Of a stretch of 64,000 nt of DNA, positions 11,851 to 45,441 are shown one piece after another. The DNA lies in NCBI GenBank assembly GCA_026708085.1, contig JAPOVP010000007.1, positions 1-64,000 of the forward strand, given 5' to 3'. The position numbers and the translations under genes were made by a program. The notes beneath the pieces are model-generated. The model was given only the letters and a program-made list of their open reading frames with translations. It was not told where the DNA came from and made no database searches. The first letter of the stretch is position 1; each line of letters starts with the position of its first letter. This stretch comes from Caldilineaceae bacterium. GTDB taxonomy: Bacteria; Chloroflexota; Anaerolineae; Caldilineales; Caldilineaceae.

Positions 11851-11987
11851 AGCGGATGGCACTCTCCAGGTAGGATGCCGTCCACAGGTATCGGGGATTG
11901 GGGAAGCGCCGAACACTGACCACTCTCGGGCCCCCAATCCCCTGCTACAGTTTCCCTCCAGCCGTCACACTTTGGGGAGGTTCAGGG

Positions 11988-12932
11988 TTGACAACGATTG
12001 AAGAATCGCGCGGCGATCAAACGACAGAACGGACCGGAAATGTCCTGTTGAACCGCCTGCGCGTGCCCCGTAACGCCTTTCCGTGGCTCGTGCTGACCCC
12101 AATCCTGTTGTACTATTTCCTCTTCCTGATCTATCCGATTCTATATGCCGTCTGGGTCAGCCTCCACCTCTGGATCATTGAAGACCCCAGCGCCAGCCAG
12201 TTTGTCCTCTTCAGAAACTATAGCGATCTCCTGCTGCCTACTTCCCGCTTCCAGGACGCATTCAGAAACACGATCGTCTATGTCATTGTCCGCACAGTCG
12301 CTCTGGTGCCGCTGGGCCTTCTGACCGCCCTGTTGCTGTACCAGTTTCGACGTACGCAGCGCTTCTATCTCTTCTGCGTCTTTGCACCAATCGTCTGTCC
12401 CAGCGCCGCCATCGCCGTTCTCTGGAAATGGCTCTACCATCCGCGCTTTGGGCCGATCAATGCCCAGTTGGCGGAGCTTGGTCTCCCGCGCCAGGGGTTC
12501 ATAACCGAGGCCAACCAGGCCCTCTATTCCGTCGTAGCCGTCGACATCTGGCAACACATCGGCTTCGGGGCCGTCATCTTCCTGGCAGGACTGATGAGTA
12601 TCCCTGAACAGCTGTTGGAGGCAGCCCGCATCGACGGCGCCAGTCGCTGGCAGCTTTTCTGGAGAATTACGCTGCCTCTTCTCTCCCATACGACGCTCTT
12701 CGTGACCGTCATCACGCTGATCGGCTCCTTCCAGGTCTTCGACCTGATCCTGGTCATGACTTCAGGCGGCCCCGGGTACGCAACCTATGTACTCTCCTAT
12801 CTGATCTATAACGAAGGCATTTTGCGGACCGACATGGGGGCCGCGTCGGCGATCTCGCTGGTGATGTTTGCCATCATCATGATCTTTACCGTAATTCAGT
12901 TTCGCCTGCTGCGTCCCAGGTGGGAGTATTAG
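11988..12932 (+). CDS. Sugar ABC transporter permease, MalF/UgpA type
   Basis: This 314-residue permease has a long N-terminal hydrophobic segment (LVLTPILLYYFLFLIYPIL) and five more, with the EAA loop EAARIDGASRWQLFWRI near residue 210 where the ATPase docks. I start it at the TTG at 11988: GGGGAGG lies 7 bp before it, whereas the open frame extending back to 11898 has no ribosome-binding site and encodes nothing family-like. It is the middle gene of a binding protein/permease/permease operon. Confidence 0.85.
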   Translation: MTTIEESRGDQTTERTGNVLLNRLRVPRNAFPWLVLTPILLYYFLFLIYPILYAVWVSLHLWIIEDPSASQFVLFRNYSDLLLPTSRFQDAFRNTIVYVIVRTVALVPLGLLTALLLYQFRRTQRFYLFCVFAPIVCPSAAIAVLWKWLYHPRFGPINAQLAELGLPRQGFITEANQALYSVVAVDIWQHIGFGAVIFLAGLMSIPEQLLEAARIDGASRWQLFWRITLPLLSHTTLFVTVITLIGSFQVFDLILVMTSGGPGYATYVLSYLIYNEGILRTDMGAASAISLVMFAIIMIFTVIQFRLLRPRWEY

Positions 12933-13057
12933 GCCCATATACCGGTTAGGTCGCCAAAAGATTGTCCCGGCCTGCAATGGTCACTCCCAACGACAGCTGA
13001 CGAATTGGGTATCTGAAACGGAAAGCCGGGAACTGCAAGAAGGACGAGCCATCACCT

Positions 13058-13915
13058 ATGTTTGAAAATGGCATTTCGCCCAGGACGTTGGGCAAGGGAA
13101 ACATATCGTTCGAGCGGATTGTCCTCACGCTCGTCATGCTTGCGATCGCCGCGGGAATGTTTGTGCCCTTCATCTGGATGGTGCTCTCGTCGTTCAAGCC
13201 ATACCAGGAAATCCTTTCCCTGAAACCGACGCTCTGGCCCAAAGGGTTCACCGTGGGAAACTATACTACGTTGACGGGCGAGCTTCCTTTCTTGCGCTAT
13301 TTTCTCAACAGCGCTGGCGTTTCGTCAGTCGTAACCCTCGTCATCCTCTTTACAAGCTCATTATGTGGATATGTTTTCGCCAAGTTTGACTTCGCCTTCA
13401 AGGAACTGATCTTCATGACCATCATCAGCAGCATGATGGTTCCCTTTGCAGTCGTCGTTCTGCCTCTCTACTTTCTCATCGCCCGGTTGGGAATGCTTGA
13501 TACCTACCTGGGCCTGGTGGTCCCCTTCATGGTCAACGCCTTTGGCATCTTCCTCATGCGCCAGTTCATGGAGGGCATTCCCCGCGATCTTGTCGATGCC
13601 GGGCGCGTGGACGGCGCCGGCGAGATGTGGATCTATTGGCGAATTATGCTCCCTCTTTCCCTCAATGCGCTCTCCGCCCTGGGCGTCTTTGTCTTTCTCT
13701 GGTCCTGGAACTCTTTGTGGTGGCCGTTCATGATCATCTCGGTAAGCGAACTGCGCACGCTGCCGCTTGGCATCGCCACCCTGGCCTGGGAATATGCCAC
13801 TCGCGTAGATCTGGTCATCACCGGCGCAACCATCGGCGTAGTCCCGATACTGATCCTCTTCGCCCTGATGACGCGCACAATTGTGCGCGGCGTAGCCTTG
13901 ACCGGCATGAAATAA
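13058..13915 (+). CDS. Sugar ABC transporter permease, MalG/UgpE type
   Basis: This 285-residue second permease shows the usual order: an N-terminal segment (IVLTLVMLAIAAGMFVPFIW), the FKPYQEI linker, five further hydrophobic stretches and the EAA-type loop (DAGRVDGAGEMWIYWRI) around residue 188. The 125-bp gap to the first permease contains no gene or terminator. No ATPase follows; the next 1.7 kb is non-coding. Confidence 0.88.
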   Translation: MFENGISPRTLGKGNISFERIVLTLVMLAIAAGMFVPFIWMVLSSFKPYQEILSLKPTLWPKGFTVGNYTTLTGELPFLRYFLNSAGVSSVVTLVILFTSSLCGYVFAKFDFAFKELIFMTIISSMMVPFAVVVLPLYFLIARLGMLDTYLGLVVPFMVNAFGIFLMRQFMEGIPRDLVDAGRVDGAGEMWIYWRIMLPLSLNALSALGVFVFLWSWNSLWWPFMIISVSELRTLPLGIATLAWEYATRVDLVITGATIGVVPILILFALMTRTIVRGVALTGMK

Positions 13916-14334
13916 CAAGACTAGGCAGCTTACCAGGAGTCCCTCTCGGTCTGGAACGTTCCCAAACCCACCCCCATCCTCCCCCAGGATTCACTTCTTC
14001 TCTGAAAGTGACTGATTCACCCGCACACCGGTCGAGCAGCGCCTGAGCGCCCACACGCGACCAGTGCATCCCAGACCGCCCGAATCGCTGCGCCACGACG
14101 CCCATGCTCTCCTGTCCCAAGCCGCCGACGCCGCCCAACCCCAATCCCTCTCCCCTCATAGCAAGACCTGACATCACCAACCATTGACCACCGTAGGCGT
14201 GCAGTTCAAAATGGGGGTGACTTCTCCTACACGTCCGGCAGCAACGAAACCATAGCTATTCCGCGTTCAGCTATGAAGCAATGGTAACGCCGTCTCTGAC
14301 CACTAACCACTGCAGTTCTGGGCGGTCGGGCCTT

Positions 14335-14377
14335 CGGCCCTCCCTTATGCGGGGGGACTCCCCTCGCAACGCCCCCC
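14335..14377. repeat. GC hairpin, repeat family 2, degenerate copy
   Basis: CCCTCCCTTATGC, a run of six G, ACTCCCCTCGC and AACGCCCCCC match the copy at 3-45. The stem here (14349-14367) is imperfect. Confidence 0.5.
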
Positions 14378-14528
14378 TTCAACACCAGCCTCATCCACCG
14401 TGCTGCCTCTTCCCCACCATCGTGCCTGCTCGACACTATTCCCCCCAACCGGTCCCGCCAACACAGACCTCATGCCCGCCCAGCCCCCCCCTCATGCGTC
14501 GTCTTCACCACACCCTTGAAACGGACCC

Positions 14529-14553
14529 GTAGGGGCAGGCCTTGTGCCTGCCC
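14529..14553. repeat. GTAGGGGC hairpin repeat, CAGGC type
   Basis: Perfect 8-bp stem GGGCAGGC/GCCTGCCC with the CTTGT loop, identical to the copy at 5231-5255. Confidence 0.8.
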
Positions 14554-14598
14554 TCGCCCCCCTCATGCGCCATCTTCATCACACCGCCAAACGATCCC

Positions 14599-14622
14599 GT
14601 AGGGGCACCCCTTGTGGGTGCC
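14599..14622. repeat. GTAGGGGC hairpin repeat, CACCC type
   Basis: Stem GGGCACCC/GGGTGCC with the CTTGT loop, losing only the last pair. It lies 46 bp after a CAGGC-type copy in the same orientation. Confidence 0.8.
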
Positions 14623-14739
14623 TCACTCAAGGGCGCTTTGTGAAACTTTGTGACTCTCGTGGAAGGACAACATGATGGGACCGCAAGTACCAGTCCAGAC
14701 AAATGCCAACGACTCCTGACCACTGACCCGCGGTTCCTC

Positions 14740-15590
14740 AGGCCAATTGTATCAAGAACAGTGTTATAATAGCCTGGTGCCGAAATATCAATTGGCATTA
14801 CTGAGACCGTACTGTCATCACCAAACCATGACTGACGCTGCTGGCAGCGAATCCGAAGTCAGGGGAGGACCCTTCCAAGACTGGTAACTGCCCAGTACCC
14901 AACCAAGACAGCGTGGAAACGTGCGCGAAGCCAAGCGCAAAAGTCCAGGAAAAGGAGTACTGCCCGCCCTGACCCGCCCTGACCCGACATTATCCTACAT
15001 AACCCGACTTGACCCGACATGAAACGTCCAGTTCCTCCCACCAGGTCAGAGTTCGTACAACTCTCGTACAACGCACGCACACACTCGTCCGGCCTCGCCA
15101 GCGCCGGCGAGGCCATAATCACAGCCCATCCCGTAAATCCCATGAATCACAGTTCAGACAACCCGCAAACGCTCATAAACTCTCGTCCAACGCTCATACG
15201 AGACAACCAGCGCCTGCCAGCCTCTAATCACGGTTAATCCCTTAAATCCCATAAAATCACAGTTCAGACAACACGTAAACGCTTATGAACGCTCGTAAAC
15301 TCTCATACACTCTCGTCCACCACACAGATGAGAAATCCGCCAAGGTCGGCATCGCTGCCAAACGCATACGGGCCGGCTGGAATTAGAAACATCTTCCAAA
15401 GGTGCCACACAACTGAGATGCGATTGCCCTGCCCCAACATAAATACGTCCCCTGTGGGCGCCTGCTGTGTGCTAAAATAGTGACCGCATTCAGACGAAAT
15501 GGCACTGGCCCTGGCAAGCCGGCTCTTGTCAAAGGAAAATCCGAATACGTAGAAAGACAACTGTAGTTCAGTCATTTGCCGAATGTCTGA
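14740..15590. repeat. Long direct repeat R1, left copy
   Basis: This stretch aligns in order with 19740-20715 (R2). Shared blocks, all read on the plus strand, include TATAATAGC(C/T)TGGTGCCGAAAT, GGGGAGGACCCTTCCAAGAC, a cluster of 'CCCGACTT' words, 'AGTTCAGACA' phrases, CTCGTAAAC-type words, and a 240-bp 3' block from GAGAAATCCGCCA to GGCCCTGGCAAGC. Identity by eye is roughly three quarters. No gene can be assigned. The minus-strand frame at 15303-15575 is open, but its counterpart in R2 differs by amino-acid-changing substitutions. Confidence 0.65.
15160..15310. repeat. CTCGTAAAC-type short tandem words in R1
   Basis: Imperfect 10-bp units such as CTCATAAACT, CTCGTCCAAC, CTCGTAAACT and CTCTCATACA recur here. 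The matching tract in R2 (20411-20467) has cleaner units. 'AATCACAGTTCAGACAA' phrases at about 15140 and 15250 interrupt it and recur at 20390 and 52030. Confidence 0.5.
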
Positions 15591-15676
15591 CTGTCCCTAT
15601 CTGATCAAAGACAGCGGAAGACAATTTGCGAAGTCAAACTGCTTTGTCAGAAAAGACCCGTTTTGGCGCGACATGT

Positions 15677-32799: not shown

Positions 32800-34845
32800 G
32801 TGACCCGCTTGATATCATTCCCCAAGGGCCGCATTGCCATGGCGGCCGCGCGCCTGACAGCGATCCGTCAGCGCATCTGGACCACCTACCTGCCCGAACT
32901 GCTCGTCCTCCTCCTCGCAGCTCTGCCCCGCCTCTGGCGCCTGGAATATCACAGCATCTGGTTCGACGAAGCCATCTCCCTCGACTGGGCAAGGCTCGGC
33001 CCCGCTCACATTTTGCCGGGCACCCTCCAGCTGATCAGAGACAAACACCCGCCCGCCTACTATCTCGCCCTCCACTACTGGCAGACTCTCCTCAACTGGT
33101 TCGGCGCCGGCCAAAGCGACGCTGCCCTGCGCATCTTCGGCGTCCTCATAGGTATTCTCATGGTCTGGGGAATCCTGCGTCTTGTAACCCGGCTCAGCGG
33201 TCGCGCCAGCGGCCTGCTCGCCGCCGCCCTCACCGCGCTCGCGCCTGTGCTCGTCTGGTACAGCCAGGAGCTGCGCATGTTCCAGCCCGCCGCCACTGCC
33301 ATAGTCTGGGCCGTCCTCTTCCTCGTCGCCGCCCGCGAGCATCTTCCCCCGCACGGCGCGTCAACCGGCAGCCGCGCCGCTCCGGCCCGCCTTCTCTGCT
33401 GGCTTGGCCTCGTAGCAGCGCTTACCTTCGCCCTCTACAGCTATCTCTACGCCGCCTTCTTCCTACCCGGCCTCGGTCTCAGCATATTCCTCCTCGCTCG
33501 CCGCAGCGGGTCCTTCGACAGGCGCTACCTACTCGAGGCCATCGCCGCCTTCGCCGTCGTCGCCCTGCTCTTCCTGCCTCTTGCCCGCAGCGCCTGGACC
33601 GTCAACAGCGCATCCGGCACAACCGGCGCCCCCTTCGCCGGCTTCCTGCCCAACCTGTGGCGCCAGTTGCACATCTTCACCGTCTGGTATACCGGCTGGC
33701 CCTCGTCAGTCCGTACTGCCGCAATCCTCTTCTTCGCCCTGCTCGTCCTCGCCGGCCTGCTCCTCCCCGGAGACCGCCGCCGCGAAACGCGCCCGCTACT
33801 CTGGCTCTGGATCGGCGCGCCCCTGCTGATCGGCAGCGCCCTGCTCGCCACCAACGCCGCCATCTTCCGCGAAGATCGCTACTTTCTCTTTCTCGCCCCC
33901 TTCGTCCTCTGGGCCGCCGCCCGTGGTGTGAGCGCAATCGCACGCTGGCAGCCGTCTGCCGGCGCTCTCAGTGGCCTTGCCGCCCTCGCCCTCCTCGCCG
34001 CATCGCTACCCGTCCTCTGGACGCCCCCGCTCTTCCGCGAAAACTGGCGCGCCGCTGCCGGCTATATCAATGCCTATCAGGAGCACAGCCCCCACGCCGC
34101 TGCCGCCGCTCTCGTCAACCCCTATTTCCTCCTCCCCGCCCTCGACTGGTACCTGCGCCAGCAACCCGCCGCAACAGAGATGCCCGTCTACGGCAACTTC
34201 AACGCCCCGCTGACCCCCGAACAGGCCGAATCCCTTATCGCCGCCCATCTGCAGGATCTGACGGCGCCCAATGGCGCCGAAACACTCTGGCTGGTCCAAA
34301 GCCACCTCGCCGGCGTCGATGATCACCGGCTGGTCCAATCTTGGCTGGATGGGAGATTCCCCCTCGTCACCGAGCAGTACCCGGCTGGCGTGGAGATGCG
34401 AGGCTATGCCGTCCGTTTCAGATACCAGACCCTGCCCGAGCTGTCCGAGACCGCCGTCCATCCGCAGGCTCAGCTATTCCCCGGCGTCGAACTCACCGCC
34501 TGCGAGATCACCACGCCGGTCGTCCCCGCGCGCGACATCTTCTACCACCCGCCCAGTGGCTGGGTCCATCTGCGACTATGGATGAGGAAACTCGAAGAAG
34601 TAAGCGAAGCGCCCCCGCTCTTCGCCCTGGTCCAGGCCGGTGACGGGCAAATCTGGGGTCGTTCCTTAGAGCGCGCCGGCGACGTGCTCTCCGTCTACCC
34701 GCCCACCGCGTGGCAACCAAACGAGTTCGTCCGCGTCGAACTCGACGTAAACCTCAACCCCCTGGCCCAACCCGGCGCCTACAATGTCAAAATCGAAGCC
34801 GAAGGCCAACCCGGCGTCCCCTGCGGAAAAGTCCAACTTGAATGA
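32800..34845 (+). CDS. GT39/ArnT-like membrane glycosyltransferase
   Basis: This 681-residue integral membrane protein has the N-terminal HSIWFDEAISL, whose acidic pair is the catalytic region of GT-C enzymes. KHPPAYYLALHYW follows, and then about ten hydrophobic segments to about residue 400. A soluble C-terminal part (about 410-681) is mostly beta and ends in a carbohydrate-module-like fold (GVELTACEI, FVRVELDVNL). It should transfer a sugar from a polyprenyl-phosphate donor outside the membrane. The GTG at 32800 is used; an ATG at 32839 is an alternative. It converges with the helicase gene, with 14 bp between stops. Confidence 0.78.
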   Translation: MTRLISFPKGRIAMAAARLTAIRQRIWTTYLPELLVLLLAALPRLWRLEYHSIWFDEAISLDWARLGPAHILPGTLQLIRDKHPPAYYLALHYWQTLLNWFGAGQSDAALRIFGVLIGILMVWGILRLVTRLSGRASGLLAAALTALAPVLVWYSQELRMFQPAATAIVWAVLFLVAAREHLPPHGASTGSRAAPARLLCWLGLVAALTFALYSYLYAAFFLPGLGLSIFLLARRSGSFDRRYLLEAIAAFAVVALLFLPLARSAWTVNSASGTTGAPFAGFLPNLWRQLHIFTVWYTGWPSSVRTAAILFFALLVLAGLLLPGDRRRETRPLLWLWIGAPLLIGSALLATNAAIFREDRYFLFLAPFVLWAAARGVSAIARWQPSAGALSGLAALALLAASLPVLWTPPLFRENWRAAAGYINAYQEHSPHAAAAALVNPYFLLPALDWYLRQQPAATEMPVYGNFNAPLTPEQAESLIAAHLQDLTAPNGAETLWLVQSHLAGVDDHRLVQSWLDGRFPLVTEQYPAGVEMRGYAVRFRYQTLPELSETAVHPQAQLFPGVELTACEITTPVVPARDIFYHPPSGWVHLRLWMRKLEEVSEAPPLFALVQAGDGQIWGRSLERAGDVLSVYPPTAWQPNEFVRVELDVNLNPLAQPGAYNVKIEAEGQPGVPCGKVQLE

Positions 34846-34859
34846 GATGAAAAGGAGAT

Positions 34860-36983
34860 TCATGTGAGGAGAAACTCCAACTTCTCCTGGACTTGCGGTG
34901 CAGGCTCAACGATGTCCGCTGTACAATAGATGTGCCGAAATCGAGGCAAATCGCAACGGGCAACGACCGTTTTCCGGGCTAAATCCAGCGGCAACAGCGA
35001 ATGGAAGCGCCCCAAATCCAAGATCGCTTCAAAGCGGGGCAGCAATCGGTGCAACGCCCGACAAAACTTTTTTTTGTTCCAATCAGGTAATTTACACACG
35101 CGACCCGGTACAAACAAACAGTGTTCGTTGACATGCATTGCTGGCGCGGAATCTTTAGCTGTTGGATATTGAGAGTGGAGGATTTCCCTCAGCATCTCGC
35201 CGTACAGTTCTCCCCAAAAGTGAAAGAGCCACGTTCCTTCGGCCACCGGTATAGTTGCTATCTGGGCCGGCTGCAGGCCGGCCCAGGCAGCCATTGCCTG
35301 ACCGACTTCCAGCGGCAGGGCGTAAGGGGCGGTCTGGGAATAGATCTCTCGGCCCAGTGGCGCTCCTCGGATGCGTTCAACGCCGATGCGGTAACGGTCT
35401 TGCCATACGACCCGCAGGGTGCGCCCGCCTAGCTGCAGAACTTCTCCCACTGTACGGCGTCGGTGAGTTTGGGCTAAGGTTCGTCCGCTGAATGCGTCTA
35501 CCAGTGTCAGCGTAAGGGGGGCACTGCCGATATTGCTATAGATTTCGTGGGCGTCCACCAACTCATCCAACGCCGGCCCAGGCCGCCACTCACCCAGCCG
35601 TCCGGCGCGCAGGAAATCGAGCCGGCTTAAGTGACCCAAGATACTGCGCAGGATCTCATCATCAAATGACACCGGCGTTACTCGCCTCAAATCGGGCAAT
35701 CGAATGGCGCCCGTTGGGCTTTGCTTGAGAATACTGAAAGTCTGCTGAACCAGTACCGACGGCAAGAACGAAACCCCCTCCCGCCCCGCAACTCCGTCGG
35801 CTAGCGCAATCAGTGCCTGAAACTGTGCAACTTCCAGCCGGGAGCGGGCCATGCACAACACGCGCGTGATACCCGTGCGCCGGCCCCCGCGGCCGATGCG
35901 CTGCAAAAAGGATTGAAGCGACGGAGGTGGCCCGATGAGGGCCACATCGTCAATGCTACCGATGTCGATGCCTAATTCCAATGTGGAGGTGCTTACACAG
36001 ACAGCCACAGGCGCGACAGCAAAATCCCTTTCCACCTCAAGGCGTAAGGCCTGATCCAGATTCGAGTAATGGGCAAAGACGGCAGCGTTATAACCCAGAT
36101 ACGCGCGGAGAAAGGCCGCGGTCTGCTCCACTTCGTTGCGAGTGTTGCAAAAAACAAGCGTCTTGCGGATTCCGGTGCCTCTTCGCACTCGTTCAGTGAG
36201 AGCCGCCGCCAGCTCATCCAGATCCGTCATCGACGCAATCGTAGCGTCAAGTCTCCGCTTGCCCGCGACTGCGACAATTTTCAGTGGAGCGGTCGGAATT
36301 TCGTCAAAAGGCTGGCTTTTCAGGTAGCGCTCTGCTACACCTTCGGGATCAAGAACAGTGGCGGACAGGGCAATGCGCTGTAAAGGAACAGCCTCTGTTG
36401 TCGCCTGCTTTTGGTGATAGGCCCGCACAGTCTCGATGCGCCGCAATAGGCAACGCAGTTGGTCGCCCCGGGGGCCGCCATCAAACAGGTGAATCTCGTC
36501 CAGCACTATGGCTTGCAATGGGGCCAGCAGGCGCGGTGCTCGGGTGAGAAGGGAATCGGTCGATTCTGGTGTGGTGATGAGAACGGTCGGTGGATTTCGG
36601 GTGGAGACCGGCCCGGTGTCGCCGCTTTTCATTGTCAGGGACACTTCCAATGCTGCAAAGGGTCCCTGCAAACGCTCGTACAGGTCTCGCACCAACGCCC
36701 GCGTGGGGCAGATGTAGAGAATGTGGAGACGGTTTGGAGATCGTAACCCTTTCTGCCGCTGGATCGGCCCAAAACAGTATCGCTCCAGCAACGGGGCTAT
36801 AGCCGCCTCGGTTTTGCCGGAGGCGGTAGCGGCTATGACGAGTGTATTTTTGCCATCGAGAATCGGTGGGATCGTTTGCTGTTGGACGGGGGTAAGGCTG
36901 CCGTGCCGAGCGAAAAAGGGTGTCCAGGTACGGGGTAAACGGGACTTGAGGGCGAGAAGGCAATCATGCTGTGTCCAAGTCAT
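34860..36983 (-). CDS. Superfamily 2 DEAD/DEAH helicase, Lhr/BrxHI-like
   Basis: This 707-residue helicase has a Q-motif-like LTPVQQQTIPPIL, Walker A AATASGKTE (51-59), motif Ia PTRALVRDLY, motif II VLDEIHLFDGGPRGDQLR, motif III ALSATV, motif IV FCNTRNEVEQ, motif V STSTLELGIDIG and motif VI QRIGRGGRRTG. The GRGGRR box and the Lhr-like spacing put it near the BrxHI helicases of type 2 BREX. The C-terminal 280 residues have no domain I can name. It starts at the ATG (36983), three bases inside a TTG. It is the last gene of a minus-strand run behind two BREX-type ATPases. Its GC content is lower than that of the glycosylation genes on the other side. Confidence 0.82.
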   Translation of the reverse strand: MTWTQHDCLLALKSRLPRTWTPFFARHGSLTPVQQQTIPPILDGKNTLVIAATASGKTEAAIAPLLERYCFGPIQRQKGLRSPNRLHILYICPTRALVRDLYERLQGPFAALEVSLTMKSGDTGPVSTRNPPTVLITTPESTDSLLTRAPRLLAPLQAIVLDEIHLFDGGPRGDQLRCLLRRIETVRAYHQKQATTEAVPLQRIALSATVLDPEGVAERYLKSQPFDEIPTAPLKIVAVAGKRRLDATIASMTDLDELAAALTERVRRGTGIRKTLVFCNTRNEVEQTAAFLRAYLGYNAAVFAHYSNLDQALRLEVERDFAVAPVAVCVSTSTLELGIDIGSIDDVALIGPPPSLQSFLQRIGRGGRRTGITRVLCMARSRLEVAQFQALIALADGVAGREGVSFLPSVLVQQTFSILKQSPTGAIRLPDLRRVTPVSFDDEILRSILGHLSRLDFLRAGRLGEWRPGPALDELVDAHEIYSNIGSAPLTLTLVDAFSGRTLAQTHRRRTVGEVLQLGGRTLRVVWQDRYRIGVERIRGAPLGREIYSQTAPYALPLEVGQAMAAWAGLQPAQIATIPVAEGTWLFHFWGELYGEMLREILHSQYPTAKDSAPAMHVNEHCLFVPGRVCKLPDWNKKKFCRALHRLLPRFEAILDLGRFHSLLPLDLARKTVVARCDLPRFRHIYCTADIVEPAPQVQEKLEFLLT

Positions 36984-37161
36984 CAAGCCATGCTTTCAGT
37001 TCGGCGAAATCTCTGGAAAGCTCATTGATTAGCTGAAAATTCAAATCTGCAAGGATTGTTTCTAGCTCTGGCGCGTAATCTATATGGCTTGCTGACTCAA
37101 ACTCTTTCGCAATTCGCTCAGTAACGTTGCCGCCGAATAGTCCGGGTGTAGGTAAAGCAGA
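36964..37161 (-). other. Open frame bridging ATPase and helicase genes, no start codon
   Basis: On the minus strand a 65-codon frame runs open from inside the end of the ATPase gene to a TGA inside the first codons of the helicase gene. It fills the 96-bp gap completely. Its translation has protein-like, acidic helical character (ESASHIDYAPELETILADLN, then FQLINELSRDFAELKAWLDD). It lacks ATG or GTG, and its only TTG is late. It lies in the -1 frame of the ATPase, so it may be the true C-terminus of that protein reached by frameshift, or the remains of one. Confidence 0.4.
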
Positions 37162-38543
37162 TCAAAGAGTTCCACAGACAGTCGCATGGCAGCACGAATG
37201 TTCAAATGGTCACTACGCATCCCCTGACCCAGATGTTCAGCTGCGCCCTGGCATACCTTTCGGTGGCGTTCGTCAGGTTCGTAGGCGTAGGCTTGGGTGT
37301 GGAACGCCAGCGCCTGTTCCAAAAATCTGTCAATCTCTTGGGCTGTGTAGCGGTGATTCAGGTGCAGAATCTGCTCATCCTCAAGCCAGGCTTCCAGCGG
37401 TATGTCGCTGTGGGTAACGGTAAACAGGAAGAACAAGGACTGGCTTCCACCGTACCGGATGGGATACTCCCGAAAACGATGTTGGGGCAGACCGTCAGGA
37501 TTGATTCTGATCGCAGAGTTCCCCAACGCGGCCCGCACCACAGCGCTGAAGAAGAGACTGGCCTTGGGCCGCTGATAAGGATAGAGGAGCGAGTAGCTTT
37601 CCGCTTCGTCAAGCAGTACGCAAAGGCCGCTGTAGCCGGCCAGCCGGGCCAATACGCTGATGCCTGTCAGCAGATAAGCAATCTGACGGGCGTTGTGACT
37701 GTTCCGGTAGATTGAGGGGAAGCGAAATCCACGGGGCCTCGACCGCTTCATCGCCCAATCCATCCATCTCTCCTTGCGTCCGCCCATCAGCCAGTTCTGC
37801 CAAGCAGCCCGCTTGTCGGAAGAGGAGCTTTCGCCCAGCGCCTGCAAGCCACAGACCAGTGGATCATCCGCTTCAGGCGCGCTTTCAGAGAACTTGGCCT
37901 GAAGCGCCGGCGTCTTCGTTATTTCGGCCAAGAGCGGCCCCAGCCCACGCTCGTCACTTTGCGGGTAGCGCAGATTGCGCATCAGACTGCCGTAAATGTC
38001 GAAGGCCCGGTGGGGCGGCAGTTCATGCAAGTCCAGGCTGGTGACGGCAACGAGGAAATTGCAGTCCAGCGCCTCTTGGGTGGTCAGTTCAATGACATGA
38101 CTCTTGCCATAACCGTACTCACCGAGGACTGCCCGCGTCGCGCCGCCTTCGCTGTGAGCCTGGTGCAATGCCTGCGTGAGGCTCTTGCGCTCGGCTTCCA
38201 GGCCTATCGTCAGATCGCGGATGCGCTGCGCTGGCGCCACGCCCACCCGCAGTGACTCGATTAGGTGACGGGCCTCCCAGCGGTCGGGGGCCATCGGCAT
38301 GGGGACAATGCGGGAGAGGTTGCCAGCGGACACAAGGGTCTCTCGCGGGCGCTGGCCGTTGAATTCCAGTCTGGACCGGCGAAAACGCAAGCCGCTGGCA
38401 AAATGCACCATCCACTCTGTGCCATTGCGGTACTGCGCGACAATCCGGCCGCGTCCATATTGGGGATGCTCTACATTTTCACCAATCATGCCGGAATCCA
38501 GTGGGGAATCCAACCATCGCGCCCCGTTCGAGCAGGGCTGCAT
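37080..38543 (-). CDS. BREX-type P-loop ATPase (DUF2791, BrxC/BrxD-like) with N-terminal Tudor-like domain
   Basis: This 487-residue protein has Walker A GEYGYGKSH (141-149) and Walker B LCVLLDEAES (about 305-314), the pattern of DUF2791 ATPases. Residues 19-62 (NVEHPQYGRGRIVAQYRNG, then a conserved WMVHF) resemble the small C-terminal Tudor-like domain of PcrA/UvrD helicases, which contacts RNA polymerase. It is 10 bp behind the second ATPase gene and 96 bp before the helicase. The predicted end (SLSQQAI) may be too short; see the overlapping open frame at 36964-37161. An internal ATG at 38489 is an alternative start. Confidence 0.72.
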   Translation of the reverse strand: MQPCSNGARWLDSPLDSGMIGENVEHPQYGRGRIVAQYRNGTEWMVHFASGLRFRRSRLEFNGQRPRETLVSAGNLSRIVPMPMAPDRWEARHLIESLRVGVAPAQRIRDLTIGLEAERKSLTQALHQAHSEGGATRAVLGEYGYGKSHVIELTTQEALDCNFLVAVTSLDLHELPPHRAFDIYGSLMRNLRYPQSDERGLGPLLAEITKTPALQAKFSESAPEADDPLVCGLQALGESSSSDKRAAWQNWLMGGRKERWMDWAMKRSRPRGFRFPSIYRNSHNARQIAYLLTGISVLARLAGYSGLCVLLDEAESYSLLYPYQRPKASLFFSAVVRAALGNSAIRINPDGLPQHRFREYPIRYGGSQSLFFLFTVTHSDIPLEAWLEDEQILHLNHRYTAQEIDRFLEQALAFHTQAYAYEPDERHRKVCQGAAEHLGQGMRSDHLNIRAAMRLSVELFDLLYLHPDYSAATLLSELRKSLSQQAI

Positions 38544-38553
38544 TTGACGCCTA

Positions 38554-39828
38554 TCAATATGGCGGTGTTTCGCCTGCGCTCAGTTCAGCCACCTGCCCGC
38601 GTATGATCGCTTTTGCTTCGGCTTCGGTCAAGGTATTCTCTTCACCGGCATTCTGCTGGGCTAACACGGTGACGAAGCTCTTGACGAATAAACGTCTGTG
38701 GCTCACGTCCAGGAACATGTCCGTGGCGGCATTTGCCAGAATCTCCGCGTTGGCACGTTGTGTCTGGTGATCCAGATCTGTATTGAACGCTGTTTCGAAA
38801 ATTGGGATCAGTTTTTCACCGATGGTCAGCATAAGAACGTTTTCGTCGACGTCCAAACGTTCCAGATTGATCTGCGGACTGAAGGAATTTGTACGTGAGA
38901 AGGGGCCAAAAGCCTGTACGCGCTGTCGCAACGCGTCGTAGCGAGGTACAGTTTCGTTGATGAACTGGGGGGGCACTGCGTAGACGAACATGCTGCCAGG
39001 CAGATCGTCCCTGGTACGGTCAATGACCTCTCGCAGATTGTCTGTCGCAAGTCTTTCCGCCTTGCCGCCAATGCTGGCCATTCGGTCCACCTCATCGAAC
39101 AGCAGGACCAAGCCATTGTAGGAGAGTTCCCGGATCGTCTGTACCAGCGAGCGCAGCATCCGAAAGGCATTCGGGCGGGTAATTTTTTCGGTGACGCCGA
39201 GGCCCCGCAGAATTTTCGTATCGTCGGGGCTGGTCGTCTCCCCCATCAGCCAACGGGTGATCGAGTCCAGCCGGGCTTCGTGCCTGCGAATCAGAGCGTC
39301 AAAATAGCCCAGGATTGCTCTCTTATAGGCTAGGCTGTCGATGGCCGCCTTTTCCAATGTTTCCACGAGACCTGTGTAGTTAGGGTGGGTGAGTGTCTCC
39401 AGGACAGGGTGACCGACGAATCTCGTGAGAGTACCTTCCAGGAACCGAGTCAGTCCCTTTTCATCGCTAATCTCCTGCTCTTTCTCGTGCCAGATCAGGT
39501 TTCGGGCCACCGCAGCATAGACTAGTCGTTGGTCGTTGTAGGGAGTTTCCACCGGACTGAGGTCCACTTTGGCGACGGCAAATTCCTGACTCCAAGCCAG
39601 ATCCTGTAAGCAATATAGAAAGTGGGATTTGCCGCTGCCGTAATCGCCGACGACGATCTTGTAGGCGCCGCCGCCATTCTGCAGATAGGAAGAGAAGTAG
39701 TACTCATCCAAGGCATCAAGCAGGGAGCGATTGCCCACATTGAAATGCTGAACCCCCCGAGCCGGCGGTGTGCCGCTGGTCCCCAGATTCTCAATGATAT
39801 GGCGGGCCAATGACTGGGAAATGCTCAT
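38554..39828 (-). CDS. BREX-type P-loop ATPase (DUF2791, BrxD-like)
   Basis: This 424-residue protein has Walker A GDYGSGKSH (61-69) and Walker B LVLLFDEVDRM, followed by GKAERLATDNLREVIDRTRD and YAVPPQFINETVPRYDALRQ. This is a more standard BrxD-like ATPase than its neighbour at 37080. It probably acts as an oligomeric ATPase on DNA with the helicase. The ATG at 39828 overlaps the previous stop by one base (TAATG), so the genes are translationally coupled; an upstream GTG at 39840 is less likely. Confidence 0.78.
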   Translation of the reverse strand: MSISQSLARHIIENLGTSGTPPARGVQHFNVGNRSLLDALDEYYFSSYLQNGGGAYKIVVGDYGSGKSHFLYCLQDLAWSQEFAVAKVDLSPVETPYNDQRLVYAAVARNLIWHEKEQEISDEKGLTRFLEGTLTRFVGHPVLETLTHPNYTGLVETLEKAAIDSLAYKRAILGYFDALIRRHEARLDSITRWLMGETTSPDDTKILRGLGVTEKITRPNAFRMLRSLVQTIRELSYNGLVLLFDEVDRMASIGGKAERLATDNLREVIDRTRDDLPGSMFVYAVPPQFINETVPRYDALRQRVQAFGPFSRTNSFSPQINLERLDVDENVLMLTIGEKLIPIFETAFNTDLDHQTQRANAEILANAATDMFLDVSHRRLFVKSFVTVLAQQNAGEENTLTEAEAKAIIRGQVAELSAGETPPY

Positions 39829-40733
39829 TAGCGGCTCCACAGGTCTTGCTGTTTCGGATTATCCTCCTCGAAGAATATGTCGGCATAGAATACACCATCC
39901 AGCGGGCCATTCGGAATCCACACGCTGCGGTTCGCTTGCTCCGCTTGGCTCTTCGTCGCAACGCCTAGACGCAAGCGCAACTCCGTGCCATCCACGTTTA
40001 CCAGCGCGCCCGCCTTCTGTGCCAGGACCAGATCCCGCACAAAGAAAACGCGTTCGTAATCTTTGAATGTGGAGCGAGAAGGCTGATTCCAGAAGCGGGG
40101 GTTCTGGCGGTTGAGCACCATTTTGCTGTAGATCTCAATAACATTGATGCGCCCTCCGACAGGGTATCGGGAACGCTGCTCGATCAGTTCATTCCAGGTG
40201 TTGTACAGTTCTTGCAGAAATTGGCCGGCATCGGTCTGCCGCTCGACAATCTGTTTTTTCTGCTGGTGATACGCTTTAGGAATTGCTATGAACGACAGGG
40301 CCAGAGGCTTTGTCAGCGCCTCTTTTCCGTAGAACCACTGGCCTCTACGCGCCTTGGTATCCAACTGCAATACCAATTCGCCGACCACGACCGTGGGTGG
40401 CCGGCCTGACACCGTTTCACCTTGTGTCTCGAACAATTCCCTCAGATCACGAGCGAAGTCGAAAGCCAAGGCCTCCAGCGCCTGCTGCGTTACGTCAGCA
40501 AAGGTTCTGTGGATTGTCAGCAGTTCATCGGTGACCAGACCCTGTTCTTCGACAGCCTGCAGAGCAGCCTCAAACTTGGCCAGAGCCTTCTGCATGGGCA
40601 GGGCGTCGAGCTTTTCTTGCGATGTCAGACGCATCCCCTGCTTCAACGCGCTGGTCATAGCCTGTAGCGCTTTGAAACGGGGCATGATATCCGATTGCCC
40701 GATCTTAAATTGCTCAACGAGTATGTGATTCAC
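39828..40733 (-). CDS. Unrecognised protein, first gene of BREX-like ATPase/helicase module
   Basis: I do not recognise this 301-residue protein. Residues 15-110 look helical and coiled (FKALQAMTSALKQGMRL, KALAKFEAALQAVEEQGLV). A mixed region follows (VVVGELVLQLDTKARRGQWF) and the end is acidic (FFEEDNPKQQDLW). There is no P-loop, HTH or nuclease motif. I start it at the GTG at 40733 because GGAAGG stands about 10 bp before it; an open frame runs further back to 40880 without a start signal. Its stop overlaps the ATPase start, which binds it firmly to the module. It may be an adaptor or sensor. Confidence 0.65.
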   Translation of the reverse strand: MNHILVEQFKIGQSDIMPRFKALQAMTSALKQGMRLTSQEKLDALPMQKALAKFEAALQAVEEQGLVTDELLTIHRTFADVTQQALEALAFDFARDLRELFETQGETVSGRPPTVVVGELVLQLDTKARRGQWFYGKEALTKPLALSFIAIPKAYHQQKKQIVERQTDAGQFLQELYNTWNELIEQRSRYPVGGRINVIEIYSKMVLNRQNPRFWNQPSRSTFKDYERVFFVRDLVLAQKAGALVNVDGTELRLRLGVATKSQAEQANRSVWIPNGPLDGVFYADIFFEEDNPKQQDLWSR

Positions 40734-40860
40734 AAAATATACCCTTCCAGAGTGAAAAAACGATTCTATTACACCATTTTCTACACGTCTACGGCAAATG
40801 CAAGACAGATTAATTCGAAGTGATCCGGAAAAAAGCGTCTGCCATTCGCTAGGGGCATCA

Positions 40861-43323
40861 TTATACACGACCCAAATCATTAGGAATGATAATCCCCAGC
40901 GCCCCCACCGGCGCCCGCTGAAAGAACCGCCTGTAAGCCCGCACCTCAGCCAGCAGTTCCTTCAACTCCTCCTGCAGGAGCCTTCTCTCACTGCCGTCCC
41001 CTTCGCTCCCGTCCCCCGGCATCACCAGCGCGACATCGCCCTCTTCCCACCCCTGCAATCGCAGCAGCCCCTTCTGTTCCAGCCAGAGCAGACTGCAACG
41101 AACGATCTCTTCCGTTAAACCGATGCGGGCCGCCAGCCTGTCAATGGGAAGCTTGCCGTCCTGTACTGCCGCGCCCCGACCCCCATCCTCACCCGGCCGC
41201 ATCGACCACTTTGCCATCCCCGCCACCTGCTTCAGCACTGCATCCGGCTGTGCTTCCGCCGTGTCGCGGCCAATCAAGTACAGTTCAGTTGGGGCTACCC
41301 TTTCCACCAGCCAGTGCAACAGCTCCGGCGACGGCGGACTGCTCCACAACACCAGCGGACGATCCGTCTCGGCCCGGGTCGACGCCAACCGCGAGCGCAA
41401 GGGAATATCTCCCAAACGCGTACCCTCCGCATACCATACCGCGCTTTCGAAGGACGGCAGATCCCCCGCGGATACAAGCTCGCGTCGCAAGTCATGAAGG
41501 ACACACTCCCCCTCCACCCCTTCGACGACGCGCGTCGCCTCTGCTTCTTCCGCCGCCCGCACCGCCTCCAGCGTCAGTTGAGCCGTCCGCTCACCGCGAT
41601 ACTCATTGACGCCCAGCGTGTAGGCAATATCAACCGCACCGCCCGGCAGCTCCACATCCGCGCTGCGCCACCAGACCGCCGTCTGCCTCCTCTCCTCCTT
41701 ATCCTGCAGCAGCAAACGCCGGTGCGCGCCGTCCCGTCCGATCCGACGGTCCTGAACCACCTTCAGACTCTGGGTTACAAATTTGGGCAGCGGGTTGCCG
41801 TTGCCAAAGGGGGCCAGCCTCTCAATCTCCTCTGCCAGCGTAAGGCTTACCTCGGAGAATGGCAGCTCCGCGTCAATTTGCAAGCCTTCCGGCCCCCCAT
41901 CAATTCTGTGTTGGTCGACCTGCCGGCTCAACTCGCGCCGGAAGCGGTCAATGTTAGCCGCCTCCAGCGTCACCCCGGCCGCGCCCGGGTGCCCGCCATG
42001 CTGCATAAGCAGCTCCGCACACCCCGCGATCGCCCCGCCAATATCCACCCCCGCCGTGCTGCGCGCGCTGCCCCGCGCCGGCTCCCCAGGTGGGCTGCAC
42101 AGCAATACCGTCGGCTTGTGATACGCTTCAACCAGCCGCGCCGCAACGATGCCGATGATCCCCGCATGCCAGTTGGGATTCGCCAGAACGATCGCATTGA
42201 AATCCAGCAGGACCGGCTCCCGCTCCAGCATGTCGAACGCAGTCTGCGTGATCTGGCTGGTCAGCAGCCGTCTCTCGTTGTTCAGCCGCTCCATCTGCGC
42301 CGCCAACTGCCCCGCGCGGATCGCGTCATCCGTCGTCAGCAGCTCCACCGCCACCGTCGCATCATCCAACCGCCCCAGCGCGTTCATACGCGGCCCAATC
42401 TGAAAACCGATCGCCTGCGCGTCAACGCTGTCCGGCGACAGCCGGGCGATCTCCATCAGCGCCTTCAGCCCGATCCGTTCCGTCCGCCGCAACCTGTCCA
42501 ACCCGATCTGAAGCAGGTAGCGCGTGTCATGCATCTGCTCCGCAACGTCTGCAACAATACCCAGCGCCACCAGGTCCAGGAACTGGGCCGCACCTTCGGG
42601 GTCGCCCGCCAGTTCATAGAGCCGCTGCACCAGCTTATAGGCCACGCCCACGCCCGGCAGCGTGCGCAACGGATCATCAGCACGCAAAAACTTGGGGTTG
42701 ACGATCGCGTCCGCCCGCCGCACGCTCTGCTCACCGGCCACGTCCGCCGCTTCACCGCATGGCGGCTCCTGGCCCGCTTCAGCGTCGGCAAACTCAGCCG
42801 GCAAGTCATGGTGGTCCGTGACCACCACCGTCAGCCCGGCCTCCTTTGCTATGCCGATCCCCTCACCATCCCCGATGCCCGTGTCGCACGTCAGCAGCAC
42901 GTCCGGCTCAAAGCTCTTGTCCTCCAGCAGCTCCTTCAGTTTCGCGGTTTTGATGCCGTGCCCTTCACTGAAACGGTTCGGCACGTGAAAGCGCACTCGC
43001 TCCGCCCCCGCCAGCTCCTGCAGCGCCGCCACCAGCAGCGTCGTGCTCGTCTGACCGTCAACGTCGAAATCGCCCCAGACAAGGAAGTTCTTACCCTGAC
43101 GGACCGCATCCATCAGGATCTCCGCCGCCCGGTCCAGGCCGACCAGCGCGCTCGGCCGCGCCGGCGCATACGCCGCGCTGTCCAGAAAAGGCAGCGCCTT
43201 CTCCGCAGTGGTCATCCCCCGCTGCGCCAGCAACCGCGCCACCAGAGGATGCCCACCCACCGCAGCCCGCAGCGCCGCCGAAGGTTCAACTAGTGGTCTC
43301 AGAATCCAGGGTTGGGAGGGCAT
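40861..43323 (-). CDS. recJ: Single-stranded-DNA-specific exonuclease RecJ
   Basis: This 820-residue protein degrades single-stranded DNA 5' to 3' in recombination and mismatch repair. The DHH-family metal motifs are present: WGDFDVDGQTS (residues 83-93), CDTGIGDGEG and VVVTDHHDLP (DHH 170-172). The DHHA1 part has NPNWHAGIIGIVAARLVE and HGGHPGAAGVTLE. It is longer than E. coli RecJ (577) because of a roughly 30-residue insert after DHHD and a C-terminal extension of some 240 residues, as in several Chloroflexota and cyanobacteria. The ATG at 43323 gives MPSQPWILRP, the usual N-terminus; the open frame further upstream is not family-like. GC and codon use are high and C-ending, unlike both neighbours. 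Confidence 0.9.
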   Translation of the reverse strand: MPSQPWILRPLVEPSAALRAAVGGHPLVARLLAQRGMTTAEKALPFLDSAAYAPARPSALVGLDRAAEILMDAVRQGKNFLVWGDFDVDGQTSTTLLVAALQELAGAERVRFHVPNRFSEGHGIKTAKLKELLEDKSFEPDVLLTCDTGIGDGEGIGIAKEAGLTVVVTDHHDLPAEFADAEAGQEPPCGEAADVAGEQSVRRADAIVNPKFLRADDPLRTLPGVGVAYKLVQRLYELAGDPEGAAQFLDLVALGIVADVAEQMHDTRYLLQIGLDRLRRTERIGLKALMEIARLSPDSVDAQAIGFQIGPRMNALGRLDDATVAVELLTTDDAIRAGQLAAQMERLNNERRLLTSQITQTAFDMLEREPVLLDFNAIVLANPNWHAGIIGIVAARLVEAYHKPTVLLCSPPGEPARGSARSTAGVDIGGAIAGCAELLMQHGGHPGAAGVTLEAANIDRFRRELSRQVDQHRIDGGPEGLQIDAELPFSEVSLTLAEEIERLAPFGNGNPLPKFVTQSLKVVQDRRIGRDGAHRRLLLQDKEERRQTAVWWRSADVELPGGAVDIAYTLGVNEYRGERTAQLTLEAVRAAEEAEATRVVEGVEGECVLHDLRRELVSAGDLPSFESAVWYAEGTRLGDIPLRSRLASTRAETDRPLVLWSSPPSPELLHWLVERVAPTELYLIGRDTAEAQPDAVLKQVAGMAKWSMRPGEDGGRGAAVQDGKLPIDRLAARIGLTEEIVRCSLLWLEQKGLLRLQGWEEGDVALVMPGDGSEGDGSERRLLQEELKELLAEVRAYRRFFQRAPVGALGIIIPNDLGRV

Positions 43324-43360
43324 AGTAAGCAATGTGGGCAGCGATTTTCGACGACCAGGG

Positions 43361-44005
43361 TCAGAGGTGCCACCCGTTTTCCCGAATTGCGTTGCTGACC
43401 TCTTCTTCCAGAGCCGCAAACGCACTCAGCTGTCTCAACGGCGCATAATCACCTATGAATTCGGTGACGCGTTCCGCATGTTTGGTTACCCGGGAGCTTC
43501 TCAGCCGTCGTCTGTTGAGGTCACTGGCTTGAATGAGTAGCTGGCTCAGGACACCCTTTGGATCGGGTAGACTTTCCAGCCGACTTACTGCGGGCAGTTC
43601 TAGTTGACCCGTATAACGCCTGTTTCCTGCTGCTGCCTTGATAGCGTCTTCATCTATCAAGAGCCAGGCCTCTTGCATTCGAACTGGAATTACGCAGACA
43701 TAAGCGGGCGACAGGCCATCTGGTATAGCAGCAATCGCCTCATGTATCTCTCGTATGCGTTTCTCTCGAGGTTCCCTGTCTGCATCTCGGTGAACAAACA
43801 GGAGATCACAGGGGTAAAACGCAAGGCTGCGTTCTATCTTGTCTGCCAACTTTGGTCTGTCAGGAAGCGGCAAAATGCCAAGATCTGCCCAAGCCGCTTG
43901 AATGGGACAGCGTACTCCATTCTCAATCAACAACCAGTCCAGGACAGGAAGAAGTGCCCTATCGCTACCTCCTTCAGCAACCAGCGTATAGCGGAGTTCC
44001 TCCAT
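43361..44005 (-). CDS. TOPRIM-like (DUF4276-type) partner of the adjacent ATPase
   Basis: This 214-residue protein begins YTLVAEGGSDRALLPVLDWL, where Glu11 sits at the TOPRIM glutamate position, and has LLFVHRDADRE with the DxD pair (Asp74, Asp76). Such small TOPRIM-like proteins (DUF4276, DUF4435) pair with SMC-like ATPases in defence systems: OLD nuclease is the fused form and PARIS AriA/AriB the split form. The ATPase gene ends 2 bp upstream, so the two are one unit. The class here is judged from motifs, not from a search. GC is lower than in recJ. Confidence 0.65.
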   Translation of the reverse strand: MEELRYTLVAEGGSDRALLPVLDWLLIENGVRCPIQAAWADLGILPLPDRPKLADKIERSLAFYPCDLLFVHRDADREPREKRIREIHEAIAAIPDGLSPAYVCVIPVRMQEAWLLIDEDAIKAAAGNRRYTGQLELPAVSRLESLPDPKGVLSQLLIQASDLNRRRLRSSRVTKHAERVTEFIGDYAPLRQLSAFAALEEEVSNAIRENGWHL

Positions 44006-44007
44006 CG

Positions 44008-45441
44008 TCAGTACAGTTCCACATTTTCCATCAGAAGACTCAGTTGACTACCGTTATTCGGTATAGGATTCAGATAGTATAGCAAGCGTCCTTTCATCAC
44101 AGTTCTCTCCCCAGGGGACGCCTCGCCGCGCCAATTGTCCGGCAGCCATCTGAAGACCGCCTTTTGAAAGCGCTTGTCATCGCGGATGGCCTGTTCCGTC
44201 TCCGCTATAAGTAGGCTTTCGGGCGGAACAAGATGTACAACCGCTGGAGAATGGGTATTTACGATCACTTGGCGTAGAGGATTGTCCTTAGCAACAGACC
44301 TTGTAACGTCGACCGCAATGTCCTGAAGCAACTCCAACATGGCCGCAATTCGTTCAGGATGAATTCCGTTTTCCGGCTCCTCCAAACAGATGACGCCCTG
44401 GGCAGAGGGATCGAGCGCCAGCACTGCCAGCGCCAGAAATCGTAGCGTGCCGTCGGACAGAGATCGGGCGGGGTAGGTCGTGCCATTCTTGTCCTGAACT
44501 TGCAAGGTCAGCAACTGCCTCCTCTCATCTCTATCGATACTGACCTCATATCCATCATCAATCAGGTCAGTCAACCTCAAAGCAATCTGTTCGTAAACCC
44601 AAGTATCATGGTCATCAGTACTTTCCGGGCTCTCGGAGTGCGCTAGCGCATAGAGTGTTGCAGGTAGGTGGGAGCCATCGGGACGCATCCCTGGAGGTGT
44701 CATAAAATCGTCGGGCCTGCGCAACGACGAAGGTTCGAGTTGGAGCAAACGCCAAGATTGCATCTCTCGCCGGGCAAGCAGAGCGGTTGGACTTTCGGTC
44801 GCGTTAACGGTTGAGAGTAAGGTTCGAGGAAGATTGCTCGCTGAGAATGACTGAGGGCGCCCACTGCTGCCACCATCTTGGTGCAGACGGATTACTCGCT
44901 GCCCCTCGTGATCCACAGTAGAAATAAATGGAGCCGCCCTGCGTCCTTTGACGACTGAGTTCCGCCAGCTTTTTGCGCTATGATGGAATCTGAGGTGTTT
45001 CCACGCCTCGCCAAGTTTTATGTGCTCCAGGCTCTCCTTGACCAACTCAAATGAACCAGACAATGGCAGTCTGTCATCAACGCGATAGGCCAAGTCCAAA
45101 GAGTAACGCAGAAATGTAAAATTGGCCTTTGCTTCCTGACCCAGGTCGTCTACCCCTTTATCTGGGATTATCATTTCTGCCGTAAATGAGATTCTATTTG
45201 TGTACTCGTTACCTATGCGATGGAACAGACCTTGAACTGATGATGCCTTTTCGTCTTCTGCGCGGACTGACGCGGCGGCATCAACAAATGTGTCGCTGGC
45301 AAGCCTGCTCAGAAATTGTATCGCATCAAACAGGTTGGACTTTCCCGTCCCGTTCGCACCGGCGATGCAGGTGAAAGGGCCAAAGCGGACATCAACGTCG
45401 ACCAGGTTTTTGAAGCCGGATACTTGCAGTCTCGTTAACAT
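44008..45441 (-). CDS. AAA_21/SMC-like ATPase
   Basis: This 477-residue ABC-fold ATPase has Walker A GANGTGKSN (28-36), the signature-like RSLSDGTLRFLALAVL, Walker B VICLEEPENGIHP and an H-loop NTHSP. The coiled-coil arms are short, as in AAA_21/AAA_15 proteins rather than RecN or SMC. GGAGG lies 4-5 bp before the ATG. The TOPRIM-like gene follows after 2 bp. The pair looks like a two-protein OLD or PARIS-type defence unit in which the ATPase holds the TOPRIM nuclease until a phage protein is sensed; that role is inference. Confidence 0.75.
   Translation of the reverse strand: MLTRLQVSGFKNLVDVDVRFGPFTCIAGANGTGKSNLFDAIQFLSRLASDTFVDAAASVRAEDEKASSVQGLFHRIGNEYTNRISFTAEMIIPDKGVDDLGQEAKANFTFLRYSLDLAYRVDDRLPLSGSFELVKESLEHIKLGEAWKHLRFHHSAKSWRNSVVKGRRAAPFISTVDHEGQRVIRLHQDGGSSGRPQSFSASNLPRTLLSTVNATESPTALLARREMQSWRLLQLEPSSLRRPDDFMTPPGMRPDGSHLPATLYALAHSESPESTDDHDTWVYEQIALRLTDLIDDGYEVSIDRDERRQLLTLQVQDKNGTTYPARSLSDGTLRFLALAVLALDPSAQGVICLEEPENGIHPERIAAMLELLQDIAVDVTRSVAKDNPLRQVIVNTHSPAVVHLVPPESLLIAETEQAIRDDKRFQKAVFRWLPDNWRGEASPGERTVMKGRLLYYLNPIPNNGSQLSLLMENVELY

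Follow-up and report, generated by a model that had tools for sequence, protein, structure and literature searches.

A mobile four-gene unit with two BrxC/D-family ATPases and an SF2 helicase in Caldilineaceae and distant bacteria and archaea

Genes and proteins at the locus

A unit of four genes was found in a stretch of 64,000 nucleotides (hereafter the window, in whose positions all coordinates are given) from contig JAPOVP010000007.1 of a Caldilineaceae bacterium. In the order p1-A1-A2-H, these genes encode a 301-aa protein (p1), two ATPases (A1 and A2) and a helicase (H). The unit is real and conserved and carries no name in the libraries and literature searched, which bears out the proposal of the initial annotation, made from the sequence of the window, that a candidate undescribed system lies here. 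The features of the locus are as follows:

39828..40733, minus strand: p1, 301 aa, family unassigned, with a GTG start and a Shine-Dalgarno sequence
38554..39828, minus strand: A1, BrxC/D-family (PF10923) AAA+ ATPase, 424 aa when read from the ATG that shares a base with the stop of p1
37080..38543, minus strand: A2, second PF10923 AAA+ ATPase, 487 aa, with an AAA+ fold nearest Cdc6/Orc1
38340..38498, minus strand: small beta barrel of the Tudor type at the N-terminus of A2, a relative of the PcrA/UvrD Tudor domain that binds RNA polymerase
34860..36986, minus strand: H, 708-aa superfamily 2 (SF2) DExH helicase, BrxHI/SngC/Lhr-like, in a clade of its own
34848..40893, minus strand: the whole module, a piece of ~6.05 kb that genomes of the genus either have or lack in its entirety, with recJ on one side and a glycosyltransferase gene on the other
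40861..43425, minus strand: recJ-like gene bordering the insertion site, a flank and not a part of the module

All four open reading frames (ORFs) lie on the minus strand, and the coupling of the first three genes was found as previously described, with the helicase next. The TAA stop of p1 and the ATG of A1 share 1 base (the sequence reads TAATG), A1 and A2 are separated by a gap of 10 bp and A2 and H by one of 93 bp, and the GTG start of p1 has a GGAAGGG Shine-Dalgarno sequence 8 bases upstream. The Walker A and B motifs are likewise intact in both ATPases (GDYGSGKS and LLFDEVD in A1, GEYGYGKS and VLLDEAE in A2).

Both ATPases match the BrxC_BrxD family of Pfam (E value 5.6e-46 for A1 and 2.3e-25 for A2), and no PF10923 protein beyond these two was found in the same genome. 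With the PADLOC models, A1 scores best with BrxD of bacteriophage exclusion (BREX) systems and is also matched by SngB of Shango. The model of A2 (predicted local distance difference test score, pLDDT, 89.9) has an AAA+ fold of the origin recognition complex (ORC)/Cdc6 type, for which the best match was archaeal Cdc6/Orc1 (Z 15.7 over 254 residues), other matches being TnsC (Z 13.3) and MuB (Z 12.9). The fold of this AAA+ part is shared with the archaeal and eukaryotic ORC-Cdc6 helicase loaders, whereas no MCM-type helicase is present here and the partner is an SF2 helicase. In the phylogenetic trees, which include few BREX-2 rows (3), SngB (100/100) and BrxD (100/99) form clades and the main A1 rows form a third; two A1 rows from plasmids branch near the A1 clade in a placement that is not firm, and A2 falls outside A1, SngB and BrxD together. 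The A1 and A2 trees have a similar branching order.

The first ~50 ordered residues of A2 are modelled as a small beta barrel, and a profile of the A2 N-terminus found its best solved relatives in the C-terminal Tudor domains of UvrD/PcrA (E value 5e-5). The Tudor domain on A2 is new here. It is present in 57 of 65 A2 proteins, six of 12 A2 members are matched by the Pfam family PcrA_UvrD_tudor, each weakly, and the motif H..[YFWL]GxG occurs near the N-terminus of 57 A2 proteins, in 8 of which L replaces the aromatic residue. No such domain was detected in the Shango or BREX-2 loci examined. PcrA uses its Tudor domain to bind RNA polymerase, and the binding is severely impaired when any one of H681, W684, K712 and L714 is changed (PMC5397179); in Escherichia coli UvrD, H678 and F681, with equal spacing, belong to an aromatic cage (PMC7585439). 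What A2 shares with these proteins is the profile match and a His with an aromatic residue three positions on, whereas the domain sits at the C-terminus of a superfamily 1 (SF1) helicase in PcrA/UvrD and at the N-terminus of a BrxC/D-type ATPase in A2. By analogy, the A2 Tudor domain may bind RNA polymerase.

H matches the DEAD and Helicase_C families of Pfam and carries the motifs TASGKT, DEIH and QRIGRGGR. Its best PADLOC models are BrxHI (246 bits) and SngC (234 bits), and it also scores with ligase-associated DEXH helicases in NCBIfam. The helicase tree places H on one side of a 100/100 branch and BrxHI and SngC on the other side. In one congener (G002, L023:13163-15288), the helicase gene is split into ORFs of 492 and 196 aa and the other three genes are intact, which possibly reflects decay of H. 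In another genome (G029, L038:14966-16074), H is directly followed by a DUF6884/YaaA-like gene and a gene for 232 aa with no Pfam match, which are possibly extra effectors.

The predicted structure of p1 (pLDDT 95.8) comprises a bundle of long helices (residues 3-103) and then an alpha/beta domain (residues 104-291). No convincing family was found for it in Pfam, PADLOC, NCBIfam or PHROGs, the last three of which were also searched via 49 relatives, and comparison of its sequence with PDB, PHROGs, PADLOC and NCBIfam gave chance-level matches only. Its model had no Foldseek match to PDB folds at E <= 0.001, and its VIA matches mostly concern a common helical arrangement of residues 1-88. A weak likeness of residues 168-293 to the ORC1 winged helix (Z 6.2-6.7) is in a range commonly seen, and no fold is claimed from it. 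The near-invariant polar residues are few (Q210, Y226 and D234), and since D234 is the sole acidic one, a classical nuclease is unlikely. A TerB-like protein was also considered and rejected, as the profile comparison with SngA, whose alignment has four rows, gave an hhalign probability of 0.1%. No p1 was found in viral contigs, and the p1 of Desulfomonile was not found in phage records.

Conservation and mobility of the unit

Relatives of p1 occur in 18 of 100 related genomes, some at only 25-29% identity, and where the contigs reach, A1, A2 and H come after them. When 84,980 species genomes were scanned with A1 as the only query, 80 loci were obtained, which are distributed over Chloroflexota, Acidobacteriota, Desulfobacterota, Fischerbacteria, Sumerlaeota, WOR-3 and three archaeal groups, the farthest A1 copies having only ~32-35% identity. 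In the testable cases among these loci, the gene immediately upstream of A1 is p1 in 76 of 78, the one immediately downstream is A2 in 67 of 68, and H is in place in 39 of 44; all four genes were seen in 51 loci. A gene order kept in this way is far beyond chance, although the loci are of common ancestry and therefore not independent of one another. The pairwise distances of the four proteins correlate with r = 0.86 to 0.98 (47 loci, with values as high in 0 of 999 permutations), to which the shared ancestry of the hosts contributes. The four-gene unit suspected from a single locus is thus a recurrent one, whose order is kept in bacteria and archaea and whose genes are inherited together, and p1 co-occurs with the ATPase/ATPase/helicase order in distant genomes that lack pglX and pglZ. 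No description of it was found in the libraries or in the literature on BrxD, Shango, BREX-related and Ter systems, a search that excludes the 2012 paper on Ter systems and DefenseFinder after 2023.

Within the genus, p1 is found in four of 17 genomes and recJ in all 17, with or without the module, so that recJ is a flank and not a part of it. In comparison with seven congeners that have no unit, homology to the window breaks off within the final codons of recJ (40894-40897) and is found again where the glycosyltransferase gene ends (34843-34847); the segment missing from these empty sites consists of the four genes alone (~6.05 kb). No obvious target-site duplication was seen by eye at the module ends. 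The site between recJ and the glycosyltransferase gene resembles a hotspot of variable gene content, because in another congener (G004, L157:7763-10727) it holds a DUF1156 adenine-methyltransferase-like gene and a gene for 285 aa. In G029, the unit lies at a different place, beside genes that are transposase-like judging from their translations. Two plasmids also carry it. On pDESTI.01 of Desulfomonile tiedjei (26.9 kb), a complete unit stands beside an AbiE toxin-antitoxin pair with no BREX, and on a plasmid of Aulosira laxa (L170:5107-17001), pglZ-brxD-brxHI of a BREX-2 system are directly followed by p1-A1-A2-H. The unit therefore moves as one piece. The copy in D. tiedjei DSM 6799, which is a described strain, lies at 10215-15641 of NC_018026.1 and, with its short length of about 5.4 kb, lends itself to cloning.

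Just upstream of recJ in the window, an AAA_21 ATPase (477 aa) and a DUF4276-like protein (214 aa), which match HEC-01A and HEC-01B of PADLOC, are encoded at 43361-45441 on the minus strand. This HEC-01A/HEC-01B-like pair is kept in most congeners, whether the module is present or not.

Defence setting and a proposed mechanism

In relatives of the unit, other genes are found as cargo between the core genes, including C5 and N6/N4 DNA methyltransferases with companion genes, pairs of AAA_21 and DUF4276 proteins, other AAA_15/21 ATPases, PIN, HNH and CARF proteins, and Uma2 and AHJR-type nucleases; among the cargo tested (n=20), one gene was metabolic and a few had no match. In L057, L060, L062, L068, L071, L072, L078 and L081, the space between A1, A2 and H contains complete pairs of restriction-modification-like or OLD-like genes and genes for nucleases. 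As defence pairs and nuclease genes have been inserted inside the operon, the unit is a landing place for defence cargo, and such cargo between its core genes points to defence. In addition, the unit is mobile, patchy and near other defence genes, as judged by its occurrence in the loci themselves.

Relatives of its parts are known from defence. Phages are restricted by Shango (PMC10250203), and SngC, BrxHI, DruE and DpdJ belong to a clade of helicases whose defining trait is antiphage function (PMC12278908). For BrxD, it has been proposed, not shown, that it loads BrxHI as ORC/Cdc6 loads replicative helicases (PMC12839542). A defence function of the unit is likely, and the unit is best filed as a kind of AAA+/SF2-helicase defence that has Shango and the dyad of BREX-2 as its sisters. 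The reading that we favour, and regard as fairly probable, is that of an autonomous, horizontally moving module against invaders (phages and/or plasmids), which would be the third lineage of its kind, the other two being Shango and the BREX-2 pair of BrxD and BrxHI.

A mechanism can be proposed for such a module because of the analogy with Shango, with the SngC/BrxHI helicases and with the loading of BrxHI by BrxD. A1 and A2 would form a mixed AAA+ assembly of the ORC/Cdc6 type on foreign DNA, and in most lineages the Tudor domain of A2 would dock this assembly on RNA polymerase, so that the target would be transcribed or stalled foreign DNA. p1 might serve as an adaptor or sensor that stands in for TerB. 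A1 and A2 may then load or activate H, which would unwind or strip the invader DNA and leave it to host nucleases or neighbouring effectors. The Tudor domain of A2 offers a concrete and testable idea of how the target may be found, namely via RNA polymerase. A much bolder version, to which we give only a minor chance, would see in the unit an undescribed and ancient family of defence systems shared by bacteria and archaea. Its heteromeric pair of ORC/Cdc6-like ATPases would sit on RNA polymerase via a Tudor domain of the UvrD type, recognise foreign DNA that is being transcribed and, with the new adaptor p1, load an SF2 helicase on it, which would amount to transcription-coupled immunity with neither DNA modification nor a nuclease of its own.

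Several observations weigh against the favoured reading of an autonomous anti-invader module or against its mechanism. None of the four proteins was recognised as a nuclease or a killing effector, so that the core probably lacks a nuclease and leaves the restriction step unaccounted for. No significant fold match points to a role for p1. The Tudor domain is missing from the A2 of Desulfobacterales and of two archaeal loci and was not detected in either plasmid unit (Aulosira and Desulfomonile), and therefore it is not essential everywhere; moreover, Tudor folds may bind partners besides RNA polymerase. Finally, H does not adjoin A2 in five loci (L093, L108, L114, L117 and L120).

Those five loci have p1-A1-A2 or A1-A2 and no helicase adjoining A2. 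In G414, a genome of WOR-3, a protein with 43% identity to H is encoded at the edge of a separate contig, and in two archaea only weaker helicase relatives were found.

Shango, repair, transposition and BREX as alternatives

The initial annotation had mentioned a TerB-linked ATPase/helicase cassette as an already named system that the order of these genes might match. Such a cassette does exist in Shango, whose loci, as examined, encode a TerB_N/TerB_C protein (SngA), one PF10923 ATPase (SngB) and an SF2 helicase (SngC), but the identity did not hold, as the unit has no TerB and two extra components. The unit could nevertheless be a variant of this SngABC machine, with p1 in place of SngA, a duplicated ATPase and a Shango-like action. 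Shango is likewise a mobile and coupled operon with an upstream non-enzymatic protein, the places of the genes are alike (an unknown protein, an ATPase and a helicase, with coupled starts), and the SngB and SngC models match A1 and H. However, a single PF10923 ATPase stands between SngA and the helicase in Shango, whereas the unit has two in nearly every locus, the second of which bears a Tudor domain that Shango loci do not have. No homologue of SngA was found near the unit in the initial set of ~98 loci with their flanks, TerB_N is absent from the Caldilineaceae genome itself and from 26 of 28 unit-bearing genomes, and the profiles of p1 and SngA are unrelated. A1 and H also form clades separate from those of Shango, with A2 outside the group of A1, SngB and BrxD and H outside that of SngC and BrxHI. 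A Shango variant is thus considered unlikely.

It is also conceivable that the unit is not a defence system at all but a housekeeping module for DNA repair or replication conflicts. The position of recJ beside the unit in the genus and the family, the scores of H with ligase-associated DEXH helicases, and the Tudor and AAA+ folds, which are typical of transcription-coupled repair and replication, would all agree with such a role. Against this, the distribution of p1 within the genus differs from that of recJ, which is found in every genome, other clades have the unit elsewhere, also on plasmids, and the cargo inside it is defence-like. Hence, a housekeeping role appears improbable. A part in a transposition or integration machine, in which AAA+ proteins pick target sites like TnsC or MuB, is very improbable: A2 does match the TnsC and MuB folds and the module moves as one piece, but ORC/Cdc6 matches rank above these two, no transposase or integrase was found to be a regular component of the unit, and a helicase has no place in such machines.

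The remaining alternative, a stripped BREX, had been put forward in the initial annotation beside an independent BREX-related system. Type 2 BREX consists of PglW, PglX, PglY, PglZ, BrxD and BrxHI, the last two of which form a dyad resembling A1 and H, that is, an ORC/Cdc6-type ATPase with an Lhr-like helicase (PMC12839542). The unit would then be a remnant in which pglW, pglX, pglY and pglZ were lost and brxD and brxHI kept, as the best PADLOC models of A1 and H might suggest. This is now largely refuted and may be set aside as having hardly any chance, since, in trees with 3 BREX-2 rows, A1 is not nested in BrxD nor H in BrxHI, each standing in a clade of its own beside BrxD/SngB and BrxHI/SngC, and p1 and A2 have no counterpart in BREX.

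The absence of pglX and pglZ from the locus, which had been noted before, extends to its relatives. PglX from BREX-2 locus L127, compared by BLAST with all ORFs of loci L022-L120, had no homologue, nor did a BREX-2 PglZ or the DUF6079 protein of L127 (a proxy of PglY) in the flanks of the ~98 first-collected loci. The PglZ domain (PF08665) is absent from the Caldilineaceae genome and from 37 of 47 unit-bearing genomes, several of which are incomplete. Only in Aulosira was a pglZ found right next to the unit, and there the BrxD-BrxHI pair of the BREX-2 system is present together with the differing pair of the unit; therefore A1 and H are not BREX-2's own. Apart from this separate BREX-2 system, the methyltransferase and phosphatase of type 2 BREX have no counterpart in or near the unit. 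The suggestion that the system may work without methylation fits the absence of a methyltransferase from the core as read from the sequences, although some relatives have methyltransferases as cargo between the core genes.

Tudor domains are known in BREX-related (BR) systems with DUF499 and in BrxHII of type 3 BREX, where they are found on the helicase (PMC12839542). These systems share an AAA+ ATPase and a helicase with the unit, whereas their helicase is of the Swi2/Snf2 family, the Tudor domain is on the helicase and not on the ATPase, and a methyltransferase belongs to the core. With a separate four-gene lineage that has no BREX gene, the ATPase-helicase pair is seen as a stand-alone module in at least three systems (Shango, BREX-2 and this unit), and therefore its mechanism is open to study in a system free of methylation, phosphatase and TerB. 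A PF10923 ATPase is usually taken to mean 'BREX', and one annotated copy of the unit bears this label.

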